Assembly (NCBI GenBank): GCA_009840595.1
Contig: VXNK01000095.1
Location: 1-64,000 of the forward strand
Length of the DNA stretch: 64,000 nt
From: Rhodospirillaceae bacterium
GTDB lineage: Bacteria; Pseudomonadota; Alphaproteobacteria; Bin65
Direction: 5' to 3'
Shown here: positions 6,900 to 13,074 of the stretch, one piece after another
Numbering within the stretch: the first letter of the stretch is position 1
How the letters are laid out: every line of letters begins with the position of its first letter
Program-made: the position numbers and the translations under genes
Notes under the pieces: model-generated
Told to the model about the DNA's origin: nothing
Seen by the model: the letters and a program-made list of their open reading frames with translations, nothing else
The model's database searches: none

Positions 6900-7043
6900 G
6901 CCGGCGCGGCGCGCGGCCATTTCCTCCGCAAGACGTTACGACCGGCCCGCGGCGGTCGGCTTGCAATGGCCGGGCATCTTGGCCATCATGCCGCGTTCGA
7001 GCAGACTGACGGATTGGACGGGAAATTGGCCGGACCGACAGCG

Positions 7044-7799
7044 ATGACAGCGAAGCCCGCCCGGCTGCCCCGTTTCTTCTACCGGATGCCGCCCCGGCCG
7101 TGCCCCTATCTGAAAGGGCGCACGGAACAGAATATCTTCACCGAACTGGCCGGCCCCAATACCGGCGGCCTCTACGATGCGCTGACCCAGTCGGGCTTCC
7201 GGCGGTCCCACAACGTCGCCTACCGGCCGGCCTGTCCCGGCTGCCGGGCCTGCGTGCCCGTCCGGGTCGTCGCGCCGGCCTTCGCGCCGGGCGCCAGCCT
7301 GCGCCGGATCGTCAAGCGCAACGCCGACCTGGCCGAACAGGATTTGCCGGCCCGGGCGACGGCCGAGCAATACGAACTGTTCCTGCGCTATGTCACCTCG
7401 CGCCACGGCGACGGCGAAATGGCCGGCATGGATTTTCAGGAATATGCCGCGATGGTGCAGGACAGCCCCTTGCGCACCTTCGTCACCGAATTCCGCGACC
7501 CGAGGGGCCGGCTGCGCGCCTGCGCCCTCGTCGACCGGCTGGAGGACGGCCTGTCCGCCGTCTACAGTTTTTTCGATCCGGCCCTCGACCGGCGCAGCCT
7601 CGGCACCTACACGATCGTCCGCCTGATCGCCAGGGCGCAGCAACTCGGCCTGCCCTACCTCTATCTCGGCTACTGGATCGAGGGCAGCCCGAAAATGTCC
7701 TACAAGTGGCGCTTCCGCCCGCTCGAAGGGCTGACGGCGGACGGCTGGCGCCCGCTCGACCTGCGCCCGCCCGAACAGCGGGAGCTGTTCGCGGCCTGA
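7044..7799 (+). CDS. bpt: Aspartate/glutamate leucyltransferase (N-end rule)
   Basis: Transfers leucine from Leu-tRNA to proteins with N-terminal Asp or Glu, marking them for ClpS/ClpAP degradation. Family marks are the N-terminal cysteine cluster PCPYLKGR and the ACPGCRACVPVRV segment (about residues 60-72), and the C-terminal GYWIEGSPKMSYKWRFRPLE motif (about 210-229). At 251 residues from the ATG at 7044 it matches bacterial Bpt; an upstream in-frame start at 6966 would add 26 non-conserved residues. It stands alone between the CGL and TRAP transporter genes. Confidence 0.9.
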   Translation: MTAKPARLPRFFYRMPPRPCPYLKGRTEQNIFTELAGPNTGGLYDALTQSGFRRSHNVAYRPACPGCRACVPVRVVAPAFAPGASLRRIVKRNADLAEQDLPARATAEQYELFLRYVTSRHGDGEMAGMDFQEYAAMVQDSPLRTFVTEFRDPRGRLRACALVDRLEDGLSAVYSFFDPALDRRSLGTYTIVRLIARAQQLGLPYLYLGYWIEGSPKMSYKWRFRPLEGLTADGWRPLDLRPPEQRELFAA

Positions 7800-8069: not shown

Positions 8070-9161
8070 ATGAAACGTCGTATATTCCTGTCGGGCGCGG
8101 CTGCGGCCGGCGCTACCGTTGCCGCCAGCGCACTGCCGAAGCCGGCGCTGGCGCAGAAAAAGATCGAAGCCGTTATGGTGACGACGTGGCCGCGCGACTT
8201 CCCGGGCCTCGGCACGGGCGCGCAACGTCTTGCCAAGCGTATCAACGATGCCACCGACGGCAAGATCAAGGTCACCTACTATGCCGCCGGCGAGAAAGTC
8301 GGCGCCTTTGCCTCGTTCGACGAAGTCGCGTCGGGCAAGGCGCACATCTATCACGCTGCCGACTACTACTGGAAAGGCAAGCACCCGGCGTGGGCCTATT
8401 TCACGGCGGTGCCGTTCGGCCTGACCTTCACGGAGATCAATGCCTGGATCCAGTGGGGCGGCGGACAGCAACTCTGGGACAAGGTCGCCGGCGAATTCGG
8501 CCTCAAGTGTCTCCGCGCCGGCAGCACCGGTGTCCAGATGGGCGGATGGTTCCGCAAGGAAATCGAGTCGCCGGACGACCTCAAGGGCCTGAAGATGCGT
8601 ATTCCGGGGCTGGGCGGCGACGTCATGGCCAAGCTGGGCGCTTCGCCGGTCTCGCTGCCGGGCGGCCAGATTTACGAAAACCTGGTCTCCGGCGCGATCG
8701 ACGCCACCGAGTGGGTCGGCCCGTGGAACGACAAGTTCATGAAGTTCTACGAAGCGGCCAGCTACTACTACTATCCGGGCATGCACGAGCCGGGCGCCAT
8801 GCTGTCCCTGGGCATGAACGGATCCTGGTGGGGCAAGCTCAGCAAGAACGATCAGACGATCATCGAAGGTCTCGCCACGGCCGAAAACGACATCATGATG
8901 GCCGAGTTCGACGCCAAATCCGGCCAGGCCCTGAAGGAGCTGGTCCGGGATCACGGCGTGAAGCTGCGCCAGTTCAACGACGATGTCTACGATGCGTTCG
9001 GCAAGGGCGCTGAGGCGGTCTTCGAAGCGACCCGCGCTCACAGCGCGCTCGCCAAGGAAGTCGACGACAGCTTCCGCGCGGCGCGCGCCGACCTCGGCGC
9101 ATGGACGCAGATTTCCACCCAGGCCTATCTGGCCCAGCGGAACCGGGTGCTCGGCCTCTAG
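8070..9161 (+). CDS. TRAP transporter periplasmic binding protein (DctP, TakP-like)
   Basis: A 363-residue solute-binding protein that captures a carboxylate ligand in the periplasm and delivers it to the QM permease. The N terminus has a twin-arginine-containing signal sequence (MKRRIFLSG, hydrophobic Ala-rich core, cleavage probably after residue 29 at ALA-QKK). The conserved KMRIPG arginine (about residue 174) is the usual carboxylate anchor. The ATEWVGPWND and YYYYPGMHEPG segments resemble TakP-type alpha-keto-acid binders, so a 2-oxo or hydroxy acid is the best guess for the ligand. The start is the ATG at 8070; an upstream in-frame start at 7914 would lie ahead of the promoter -10 box. 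It is the first gene of the operon, and a strong hairpin follows. Confidence 0.88.
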   Translation: MKRRIFLSGAAAAGATVAASALPKPALAQKKIEAVMVTTWPRDFPGLGTGAQRLAKRINDATDGKIKVTYYAAGEKVGAFASFDEVASGKAHIYHAADYYWKGKHPAWAYFTAVPFGLTFTEINAWIQWGGGQQLWDKVAGEFGLKCLRAGSTGVQMGGWFRKEIESPDDLKGLKMRIPGLGGDVMAKLGASPVSLPGGQIYENLVSGAIDATEWVGPWNDKFMKFYEAASYYYYPGMHEPGAMLSLGMNGSWWGKLSKNDQTIIEGLATAENDIMMAEFDAKSGQALKELVRDHGVKLRQFNDDVYDAFGKGAEAVFEATRAHSALAKEVDDSFRAARADLGAWTQISTQAYLAQRNRVLGL

Positions 9162-9306: not shown

Positions 9307-10374
9307 ATGAGTATTGCAGCGACGGCCGATTCCGGCGCCATTTCCGACCTGCCTGCGGCGGCGTCCGGCTCGATGCAGCCGGCAATGCGCATTCTTGCGC
9401 TTTCCGTCTCCTATCTCGGCTTCGTCTATCTGGCGAACGCCTATCTGGTCTTCTGGCTCGACTGGCCGGGCGTCGTCGCCTTGCTCGGAGACGCCGGACT
9501 GCTGGGCTTTGCCGCGCCGAAAGAACCGCTCGGCGGTCGCGTCGCGCTCGCAATCCTTCAGATTGCGTTTTATCCGGTCACCGTCGCCGCCATCGTCGTT
9601 TACGTTTTGCGGACGCGGGCGCGCACCCTCCATATGGATGCAAAACGCCTCAGCGCCATCGGCGCCTTCGTTGCCCGGGCCGCCTTCTGGACCGTTCTTC
9701 TTGTCGGCCTTGCCGACGCGGTCGTCTCCTTCCTGAGGGTCGAGGGCCTTCTCCCGGATGTCGTCGGCAAGGGCCTGGCGCAGGATCTGGGCAAGTCTTC
9801 GTTCCGCGCCCAGGTTCTGCATCTGCCCCTGATGGCTGCGGCCATAGCGATCTCGCTGTTCACCCGGTCGGTCGGCTTCACCTGGCTGGCGCTGCTGGTC
9901 GTCGTGGCCGAACTCCAGATCGTCATCCTGCGGTTCCTCTACTCCTACGAACAGGCCTTCATGGCCGACCTGGTGCGCTTCTGGTACGCGGCCCTGTTCC
10001 TGTTCGCGAGCGCCTATACGCTGCTCCACGAAGGCCATGTCCGGGTCGACGTGCTGTATTCCGGCTTCGGGCCGCGCCGGCGCGCCTGGGTCAACGCGGT
10101 GGGCGCAGCGATTCTGGGCGCACCGGTCTGCTGGATCGTGATGACGATGGGCCTCGCCAACAAATTCAGCGTCGTCAGCGGTCCGCTACTGAGCTTCGAA
10201 GTCACGCAGGCCGGCTTCGGCCTCTATGTCAAATACATGCTGGCCGGCTATCTGCTGGTCTTTGCCGTCACCATGCTGCTGGAATTCATGGCGTCGCTGC
10301 TGTCCAACGCCGGCGTCCTGCTGGAGGAAGCGGACGCGCCACAGAGCAAGGGCGAGAGCGATGCGCACTATTAG
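9307..10374 (+). CDS. TRAP transporter small permease (DctQ) with extra N-terminal membrane domain
   Basis: A 355-residue membrane protein, roughly twice the usual 160-190 residues of DctQ. The DctQ domain is the C-terminal half: residues of about 195-340 carry the YSYEQAFMADLVRFWYAALF and LLHEGHVRVDVLYSGFG motifs (the HVRVDVLY box is the family hallmark) and four hydrophobic helices. The first half (about 25-190) has about four further hydrophobic segments, including one ending in YVLRTRARTLH, with no DctQ signature. The start is the ATG at 9307; an upstream TTG is possible. The large permease begins 36 bases downstream. The role of the added half is unknown. Confidence 0.8.
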   Translation: MSIAATADSGAISDLPAAASGSMQPAMRILALSVSYLGFVYLANAYLVFWLDWPGVVALLGDAGLLGFAAPKEPLGGRVALAILQIAFYPVTVAAIVVYVLRTRARTLHMDAKRLSAIGAFVARAAFWTVLLVGLADAVVSFLRVEGLLPDVVGKGLAQDLGKSSFRAQVLHLPLMAAAIAISLFTRSVGFTWLALLVVVAELQIVILRFLYSYEQAFMADLVRFWYAALFLFASAYTLLHEGHVRVDVLYSGFGPRRRAWVNAVGAAILGAPVCWIVMTMGLANKFSVVSGPLLSFEVTQAGFGLYVKYMLAGYLLVFAVTMLLEFMASLLSNAGVLLEEADAPQSKGESDAHY

Positions 10375-10410: not shown

Positions 10411-13074
10411 ATGGAATTCTTCTTCCTGCTGCTTCTGATTCTGTTGATGGCCGGCGCCCTGGCGTCCGGCTATCCGGTCGCCTTCGCCCTGCCCGGCTCG
10501 GCCATCCTCACCATCCTGCTCGCGACGGTCGCGGGTATCATTTTCACCGGCGACGAAGGCAGCTTCTTCCACACCGGCGGACCGATCGAATGGCTGAATT
10601 CGGGGGTTTCCAACTTCCGGGGCGTCTATTGGGATCCCGATCGCGACACCCTGATCGCGATTCCGCTGTTCGTGTTCATGGGCATCATGCTCGAGCGGTC
10701 CAAGATCGCCGAAGACCTGCTGGTGACCATGGCCCAGTTGTTCGGCCGCATCCCGGGCGGGCTGGGAATCTCGGTCGTCTTCGTCGGCGCGTTGCTGGCC
10801 GCGACCACGGGCATCGTCGGCGCGACCGTCGTGGCCATGGGGCTGATTTCCCTGCCGGTGATGCTGCGCAACAAATACAGCCCGGCACTGGCGACCGGCA
10901 CGATCAGCGCGTCCGGCACCCTGGGACAGATCATTCCGCCGTCGATCGTGCTGATCATCCTGGCGGACCAGCTCTCGAACGCGACCGACCAGGCGCTGAC
11001 CCTGCGCAAGGCGGAATACAAGGCCGGCACCGGATCGAGCGCCATGCCCGGCGACTATGGGCTGACCTCGGCCAGCGCCGGCGACATGTTCCTCGGCGCC
11101 TTCCTGCCCGGCATGGTGCTGGTCGGGCTCTATATCGCGTTCATCCTGGTGACGGCGCTGACGCGGCCCGCGCTGGCGCCGCCCGTAGCGCGGGAAGGGA
11201 AATTCGATGCGGCCTTCGCCAGGCGGGTGCTGATCGTCCTGGTGCCGCCGCTGACCCTCATCTTTGCCGTGCTGGGCTCGATCCTGACCGGCATCGCCAC
11301 CGTGAACCAGGCCGGCGCCATCGGCGCGTCCGGCGCCATGATCATGGCCGGATACCGGCTCTACCAAGGCCGCAGAGGCGCATTCTACCCGGCCGTGCTC
11401 GCCGTCTTGTCGATCGCCGCGATCCTGTTCCTGCTCTCGATCTACACGATCAACGTCAAGAATGTCGTCACCGCCGACGACGTGACGGCGCTGGTCCTGG
11501 CGTCGGTCGCCGTCTTCGCCCTGCTCACGTCGCTCTTGTGGAGCGGCTGGCGCGTCTACAAGACCGACGACACGTTGCGCTACGTCATGGTCGAGACGGC
11601 GAAGACCACCTCGCTGGTCTTCATCATCCTGATCGGCGCCGCGATGCTGACCTCCGCCTTCCGGGCCTTCGGCGGCGAGGATCTGGTCCGCGATTTCCTG
11701 TTCGGCCTGCCGGGCGGCTTCCTCGCCAAGTTCGCGCTGGTCATGGCGGTGATCTTCATCCTCGGCTTCTTCCTCGACTTCATCGAGATCGCCGTGGTCG
11801 TGGTGCCGATCATCGCGCCGATCCTGCTTGCCGACCCGTCGGCCAACGTCACCGCCGTCTGGCTCGGCGTGATGATCGGCGTCAACATCCAGACCTCTTT
11901 CCTGACGCCGCCCTTCGGCTTCGCCCTGTTCTATCTGCGCGGCGTGGCGCCGGCATCGGTCAAGACCATTTCGATGTACAAGGGCGTGGTGCCGTTCATC
12001 ACGCTGCAGCTGGTCGCCCTAGGCATCGTCGGCCTGTATCCGTCGCTGGTGAACTATCTGCCGAACCGCATCTCGCTCAGCGGCGAGAATGCGCCGCCGC
12101 CGCGCAATCCGCGGCTCCAGGCCTGCATCGAAGAGCGCAACTTCGTTCTGATGACGGAGCAGCGCGCAGCCCTTGTGGCGGCGATCGACAAGGCATCGAA
12201 GACGGATATTTCCTATCTCCCGGCCGAGCGGCGCAGAACGCTGAACCGGGCCTTCAAGGATGCACGGGACACCTTTGCGCGGATTGGCGACGTCCGTGCC
12301 GCGGAGAAGACCGTGGCCGACTACATCCCGACCTACCGGCCGCTGCACCGCAAAGTACGGTCGATCAACCGCCAGGTGCTGATCATCGACGGCAAACTCA
12401 GCCAGGAAGCGGAAGACCTGCGCCGGCTGCAGAACGCCGAGCGGCCGGACCGCGCCGCCATCGACGATCTCACGCGGGACATGGCGGAATTGCAGGCCGA
12501 GAAGAAAGCCCTGCTGGCGCAGGTGCCGGCGGACTGGCAGGTCAGGCGCAAACAGTTCCTCGATCTCGCCAAGAAGGAGCGGCTGGCCCGGCTGCGCTAC
12601 CGCCGGACCGTCGACGGCGCCTATGCGCCGATCAAGGAAACCCGGTCGCTGATTGCCGGCGCCGGCGCGCTGAACGACCTCAAACCGAAGCTCACGGCGC
12701 TCAAACCGCTGATCGAAACGGGTGACCCGAAAACGGCGCAAACGGCGCTCCGGGCCCTGGAGCGCGAGATGCGTTCGGTGGCAGGCACCAGCGCGATCCG
12801 CTCGCGCCTGAGCAATGCGCGGCGCAGCCTGCGCCCGACCCGGCTGCGGCGGGATCGGGCGCTGAAGGCCTATGACGATGCGCTGAAACGGTTCGACGGC
12901 GAGATCGCCTGGCGGACCGCAGCGCAGGCGACCCTCACCGGACCGCTGGCCGAATACGACGCGGCAATCGCCCAGACCATCGGCCTGCGTCTCCAGCCGC
13001 GCCTGAACAGCGACCAGGCCACCGACGTCGCCGGCTGCTTGGCCAACCACCGCGATATTTCGCTGAACTTCTAG
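10411..13074 (+). CDS. TRAP transporter large permease (DctM) with long C-terminal helical extension
   Basis: An 887-residue protein. Residues 1 to about 550 form the DctM membrane domain that moves solute with sodium: FALPGSAILTILLAT, FVFMGIMLERS, GIVGATVVAMGLISLP and SASGTLGQIIPPSIVLIIL are typical. The IPPSIVLIILADQ motif, followed by an insertion of about 25 residues, fits the mannitol/chloroaromatic-type subgroup. From residue 551 a hydrophilic tail of about 337 residues follows, rich in Lys, Arg, Glu and Ala, with heptad-like stretches (for example KLSQEAEDLRRLQNAE and DDLTRDMAELQAEKKALL), so it is probably a coiled coil. Usual DctM length is about 430-550. The reading frame is continuous and GC content steady, so this is not a misread join. 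Its role is unknown. Confidence 0.85.
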   Translation: MEFFFLLLLILLMAGALASGYPVAFALPGSAILTILLATVAGIIFTGDEGSFFHTGGPIEWLNSGVSNFRGVYWDPDRDTLIAIPLFVFMGIMLERSKIAEDLLVTMAQLFGRIPGGLGISVVFVGALLAATTGIVGATVVAMGLISLPVMLRNKYSPALATGTISASGTLGQIIPPSIVLIILADQLSNATDQALTLRKAEYKAGTGSSAMPGDYGLTSASAGDMFLGAFLPGMVLVGLYIAFILVTALTRPALAPPVAREGKFDAAFARRVLIVLVPPLTLIFAVLGSILTGIATVNQAGAIGASGAMIMAGYRLYQGRRGAFYPAVLAVLSIAAILFLLSIYTINVKNVVTADDVTALVLASVAVFALLTSLLWSGWRVYKTDDTLRYVMVETAKTTSLVFIILIGAAMLTSAFRAFGGEDLVRDFLFGLPGGFLAKFALVMAVIFILGFFLDFIEIAVVVVPIIAPILLADPSANVTAVWLGVMIGVNIQTSFLTPPFGFALFYLRGVAPASVKTISMYKGVVPFITLQLVALGIVGLYPSLVNYLPNRISLSGENAPPPRNPRLQACIEERNFVLMTEQRAALVAAIDKASKTDISYLPAERRRTLNRAFKDARDTFARIGDVRAAEKTVADYIPTYRPLHRKVRSINRQVLIIDGKLSQEAEDLRRLQNAERPDRAAIDDLTRDMAELQAEKKALLAQVPADWQVRRKQFLDLAKKERLARLRYRRTVDGAYAPIKETRSLIAGAGALNDLKPKLTALKPLIETGDPKTAQTALRALEREMRSVAGTSAIRSRLSNARRSLRPTRLRRDRALKAYDDALKRFDGEIAWRTAAQATLTGPLAEYDAAIAQTIGLRLQPRLNSDQATDVAGCLANHRDISLNF

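Follow-up and report, generated by a model that had tools for sequence, protein, structure and literature searches.

A helical C-terminal domain, most likely periplasmic, fused to DctM in a clade of DctP-type TRAP transporters with enlarged DctQ

The membrane subunit SiaM of the sialic acid TRAP transporter SiaQM has an N-out/C-out topology with 12 transmembrane (TM) segments, and its TM10–12 lie in the transport (elevator) domain (PMC9971032). In the tripartite model, the elevator carries the C-lobe of the substrate-binding protein (SBP) and the stator its N-lobe (PMC9352664); how the TRAP elevator is strictly coupled to the binding protein has been described as poorly understood (PMC9971032). 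The pyruvate- and cation-binding residues of the DctP-type SBP TakP have been defined (PMC1839085). In the TAXI-TRAP transporter VcGluQM, the transport domain bears an extra C-terminal periplasmic domain (the claw, DUF3394), which is predicted to engage the SBP, and its authors stated that such an extension was unreported for DctP-type systems (PMC11574862).

We analysed 64,000 nucleotides of a marine Rhodospirillaceae bacterium (contig VXNK01000095.1, hereafter the window), in which a TRAP operon encodes DctP and DctQ beside DctM (Table 1). The dctM gene (10411–13074, + strand) is one intact frame of 887 amino acids without internal stop. The DctM family PF06808 was found above its Pfam cut-off and restricted to the first ~550 residues, the NCBIfam model TIGR00786 scored 246 bits, under its own cut-off of 268, and the best structural match of the predicted DctM model was SiaM (7qha_B, E 3.7e-8, TMt 0.73). 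The helices of the membrane part extend to about residue 557 and are followed by a Pro-rich joint (residues 561–572) and then by a soluble, all-helical domain. A first-pass annotation of the window had placed the end of the DctM domain near residue 550 with a soluble helical tail after it, in agreement with the PF06808 limits and the predicted structure of the tail. Its statement that neither a frameshift nor a change in composition marks the join holds for the reading frame and for the G+C content, which is flat near position 12,000, but not for the AT skew, which changes there from about -0.33 to +0.29 in line with the expected replacement of hydrophobic (T-rich) by charged (A-rich) codons; the flip does not point to foreign DNA. 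In 80 of 80 public loci the tail is in an open frame with DctM, as far as the contigs permit reading, and it is conserved across many independent assemblies, which confirms the true fusion seen in the first pass and rules out a stop codon near residue 550 lost through sequencing or assembly error.

Table 1. Coordinates of the TRAP operon features in the window.
Feature	Position	Strand	Basis
TakP-type solute-binding protein DctP with twin-arginine-like leader and without lipobox	8070..9161	+	PF03480 E 1.1e-51; PDB 2hzk TakP E 1.8e-71
Small permease DctQ of 355 aa; frame open from 9286	9307..10374	+	PF04290 just at 213-339 of 362-aa ORF
DctM membrane domain, residues 1-550	10411..12060	+	PF06808 E 1.4e-59; model resembles SiaM 7qha_B
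Clade-specific insertion, residues 55-70, TM2-TM3 loop; W61, N68, R70 invariant	10573..10620	+	periplasmic by SiaM topology
Clade-specific insertion, residues 200-213, TM5-TM6 loop	11008..11049	+	periplasmic by SiaM topology
C-terminal helical tail, residues 551-887	12061..13071	+	fused in 80/80 public loci; AlphaFold2; no PDB fold match at E<=0.001
Nearly invariant joint motif APPPRNPRLQxC (residues 561-572)	12091..12126	+	entropy profile
Cys572, first invariant cysteine	12124..12126	+	
Cys876, second invariant cysteine, 12 residues before C-terminus	13036..13038	+	
C-terminal motif CxxxHRDISLxF, final Phe invariant	13036..13071	+	

As the first-pass annotation had suggested, residues 551–887 were searched alone and their structure was predicted. 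The AlphaFold2 model, computed with 79 sequences, is all helix (mean pLDDT 92.5, pTM 0.85), and includes helices that span 70, 41, 28, and 23 residues. These last 337 residues had no match above cut-off in Pfam or NCBIfam and none among PDB sequences, and a Foldseek search of the tail fold against the PDB gave no match at E <= 0.001 (best E 0.076, TM 0.17). The pore-forming toxin-like Foldseek matches (MakA, AhlB; E >= 0.076, TM ~0.17) were dismissed as long-helix noise. Compared with Pfam, the 79 tails yielded only scattered coiled-coil matches. YfdX (PF10938) weakly matches one helical segment in the tail of the window protein (E 0.0034, 17.8 bits vs a gathering threshold of 26.6), but it matched in only four of the 79 tails and generic coiled-coil matches were equally frequent, so that kinship was rejected. 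A literature search, limited to open-access papers, for a described soluble C-terminal domain on DctM returned nothing relevant besides the TAXI claw. This domain fusion is apparently undescribed in TRAP transporters.

Across the 80 loci the tail has a near-constant length of 332–339 residues and ends in a normal stop. Its best-conserved parts are the joint and the last 27 residues; elsewhere the sequence is variable, chiefly in the middle and on the surface (entropy about 2.1–2.3 bits vs 0.8 in the DctM core). With joint and ends conserved and the middle variable, the base of the tail is fixed and its length nearly so, while its surface drifts. The only two cysteines of the 887-residue window protein, Cys572 and Cys876, both lie in the tail. 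Neither varies among the 80 relatives, in all of which the second lies exactly 12 residues from the C-terminus. The C-terminal Phe (window 13069–13071) is likewise invariant in all tailed proteins and is reminiscent of the C-termini that periplasmic PDZ proteases or BAM recognise.

Relative to SiaM, the window DctM has about two additional TM helices (residues 322–384), and because this insertion is even-numbered the C-terminus stays outside. The invariant Cys pair at both ends of the domain suggests a disulfide and, with it, a periplasmic location; Cys572 and Cys876 probably pair near the membrane and tie the ends of the tail together. By homology to the solved structures and by the argument from the Cys pair, the tail most likely starts from the end of TM12, extends into the periplasm and is borne by the moving domain. 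Where the first-pass annotation had allowed for either periplasm or cytoplasm, the C-out topology of SiaM and the Cys pair strongly indicate the former and argue against the latter. The clade-specific insertions at residues 55–70 and 200–213 are missing from the tailless sisters. As the SiaM topology places both in the periplasm, the tail and the two larger insertions would lie on the DctP-docking face.

The full-length tailed protein was found in all seven examined genomes of the genus, in two further genera of the family and in one other family, with 60–94% identity over the whole length. A tail-profile scan of named genomes recovered 97 relatives. The 80 loci retained from these come mostly from marine or sponge-associated Alphaproteobacteria and also from Nitrospinota, Binatota, a deltaproteobacterial MAG, and Granulosicoccus. 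The tail was present in 31 of 385 genomes in an even sample of the class, and 7 of 398 genomes in a phylum sample had a clear match. When the 385 genomes were searched with the membrane domain, all complete cores of at least 60% identity were tailed (32 of 32, open frames of 838–960 amino acids), a 33rd being broken by a contig end. The next-best cores (45–53% identity) stop near the position equivalent to residue 550 wherever they are readable to the end, with one exception that has a short acidic extension. In a tree of 97 membrane domains, made by a quick method, one branch with support of 100 and a long stem sets the tailed proteins apart from the tailless ones, some of which have long branches. 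The tailed rows of this tree were picked because they carry the tail; that no tail losses are seen therefore rests on the membrane-domain search of the 385 genomes. These sequence comparisons indicate that the tail was gained once and that tailed DctM proteins are one clade. The first pass had also considered that the tail might be a common end of many DctM proteins with a known role; in the genomes searched it is instead confined to this clade, and no DctM match at 53% identity or less was seen to carry it.

No clear case of a separate tail protein was found in the scanned class and phylum samples; weak tail-profile matches in frames of 309, 438, and 484 amino acids from two genomes were taken as coiled-coil noise. 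Other long DctM frames (637–737 amino acids) were considered as further tailed types and rejected, as the eight that were fetched have their extra length upstream and not at the C-terminus. The most divergent tails belong to L140 (G207:C1) and G093:C167, with frames of 882 and 838 amino acids, and possibly represent a reduced form; their matches to the profile are broken, and both come from one family with small genomes. L015, of the tailless clade, has a different, short (~45 amino acids), acidic, repeat-like C-terminal extension (DQLFNEDSKSE...), and L025 and L026 (782–788 amino acids, no C-terminal tail) show another DctM architecture, with large internal insertions after TM2 and in mid-protein that include an NVSEEC..SMIDLHG motif.

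The window DctQ comprises a canonical 4-TM DctQ (residues ~188–345) preceded by ~185 residues with about four extra TM segments, as judged from family-average hydropathy. DctQ proteins encoded beside tailed DctM have 325–383 amino acids vs 167–224 beside the tailless sisters; in a few tailed loci the DctQ frame was cut or unrecovered, and one tailless call of 441/752 amino acids is an over-long upstream frame. The link between tail and enlarged DctQ proposed in the first pass therefore stands, as the two occur together wherever both are readable and the tailless sisters have a short DctQ. An origin of the extension by internal duplication of DctQ found no support (profile comparison probability of 0.6%). 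The N-terminal half of DctQ (window 9307–9861), which falls in no known family, has two predicted periplasmic loops (~44–84 and ~142–173) with conserved motifs, and is fast evolving. Mean distances were 1.50 for the tail, 1.22 for the DctQ extension, and 0.34 for the DctM core. Partial distance correlations (mirror-tree) were weak and singled out no partner of the tail (0.17 with DctP, 0.23 with the DctQ extension).

The window DctP is closest to TakP and keeps the equivalents of seven TakP positions (Tyr99, Tyr100, Gln156, Arg177, Glu214, Trp215, and Glu240), and DctPs encoded upstream of tailed DctM with readable DNA are 54–97% identical to it. These residues, together with a 2-oxoacid ferredoxin oxidoreductase-like gene that follows in 11 loci, suggest that a 2-oxo or 2-hydroxy monocarboxylate is the probable cargo and that a cation enters along with it. 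The TakP ligand residues are kept in essentially all 71 DctPs of the tailed clade and likewise in the tailless sisters, so the tail does not track a change of ligand class. Clade-specific residues of DctP occur at 42–43, 70, 200–206, and 228–229, and no clade-specific insertion resembling a docking site was found in DctP. Several other genes recur near the operon. Downstream of the tailed DctM, 11 loci (L050:11118–14636 and 10 further) encode a 1,170-amino-acid protein with a POR domain and DUF6537 that resembles indolepyruvate-type 2-oxoacid ferredoxin oxidoreductases. Upstream on the opposite strand, L089 (2026–3390, - strand) and about nine more loci encode an sCache_2 histidine kinase with a response regulator, a candidate regulator of the importer. 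Of the 80 loci, 17 have an arginyl/leucyl-tRNA-protein transferase gene (Ate/Bpt) flanking the TRAP operon on one side or the other (6966–7799 in the window).

The class and position of the fusion are well supported; its function we put forward as a reasoned proposal that stands about an equal chance of being right or wrong. We suggest, with confidence just as evenly divided, that the tail is a claw-like arm on the elevator of a TakP-type importer and engages DctP and/or the DctQ extension. Of the partner binding and the oligomerisation that the first-pass annotation had allowed for, we thus favour a partner. About 300 helical residues, closed by the probable disulfide near the membrane, would project as a rigid arm that moves with the elevator in every cycle. 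It would either hold DctP on the transporter or guide it there, or else link the elevator to the scaffold via the enlarged DctQ. A rigid arm beside the C-lobe site, together with a larger stator and longer periplasmic loops, would fit a clamping role in which DctP stays docked or its opening is coupled to elevator movement. Against the claw count the lack of a clade-specific docking-type insertion in DctP, the weak distance correlations, which do not separate DctP from the DctQ extension as partner, and the fast evolution of most of the tail surface, as a large conserved interface would seldom show. More tentatively, and somewhat doubtfully, the tail may be an unnamed domain family that makes a distinct class of DctP-type TRAP transporters, in which a disulfide-closed helical claw and a DctQ of about doubled size keep a probably dimeric SBP docked and thereby mechanically couple delivery to elevator movement. 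The main rival to the claw is a brace for dimerisation or scaffolding, in which the tail and the four extra DctQ helices would lock two QM units together, or the elevator to the scaffold, with no contact to DctP. The constant company and shared fast evolution of tail and DctQ extension, the two periplasmic loops that the extension adds by hydropathy, and the tendency of long helices, as modelled here, to favour coiled coils all suit a brace; we nevertheless consider it unlikely, and SiaQM works as a monomer (PMC9971032).

Readings that place the tail elsewhere or give it another task fit the data less well. A cytoplasmic tail that regulates the transporter from inside would suit the net positive charge (64 K+R vs 43 D+E) under the positive-inside rule, but the invariant Cys pair and the topology of the solved homologue make this very unlikely. 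Sensing of substrate load, as suggested in the first pass, might involve signalling to the two-component system found upstream in about 8–10 loci; yet the kinase is absent from most of the 80 loci, where the tail is always present, and we found no evidence for this highly improbable role. Just as improbable is the anchoring to peptidoglycan that the first-pass annotation also offered, or to the outer membrane: long helices could span much of the periplasm, but no peptidoglycan-binding family is among those listed for the 79 tails, and fixing the moving domain would oppose transport. A role as an unspecific, though conserved, stabiliser without a particular partner would agree with the fast-evolving surface of the tail and is barely plausible given its near-constant length, its invariant ends, and the lack of any loss seen in the clade. 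If the claw-like arm is the correct reading, a built-in periplasmic arm on the moving domain and an enlarged scaffold subunit, in a clade that spans bacteria of several phyla, would offer a system in which coupling can be cut, cross-linked, and imaged.

Among the known systems, SiaQM (7qha, 7qe5, 8thi) shares with the tailed transporter the DctM fold, the N-out/C-out topology, and probably the elevator mechanism, but has a 4-TM DctQ, no C-terminal domain, and neither the periplasmic insertions nor the 2-TM insertion of the tailed DctM. The nearest tailless DctM relatives end at ~520–550 residues. The alpha-keto acid transporter TakP(QM) of Rhodobacter sphaeroides, compared through TakP alone, is close in its DctP: every ligand residue is shared, and the C-terminal dimer-helix region can be aligned. 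DUF3394 was found neither in the window protein or its tail nor in the family listing of the 79 tails, and the SBP belongs to PF03480 and not to the TAXI type; in the tests made, the VcGluQM claw and the tail thus showed no homology, and their parallel would be one of position and likely role. The VcGluQM claw is mainly beta, comes with three extra TM helices, and is placed between the final two TM helices of a TAXI-type fused QM, whereas the domain described here is all-helical, follows straight after TM12, and belongs to a DctP-type system with a separate, enlarged DctQ.
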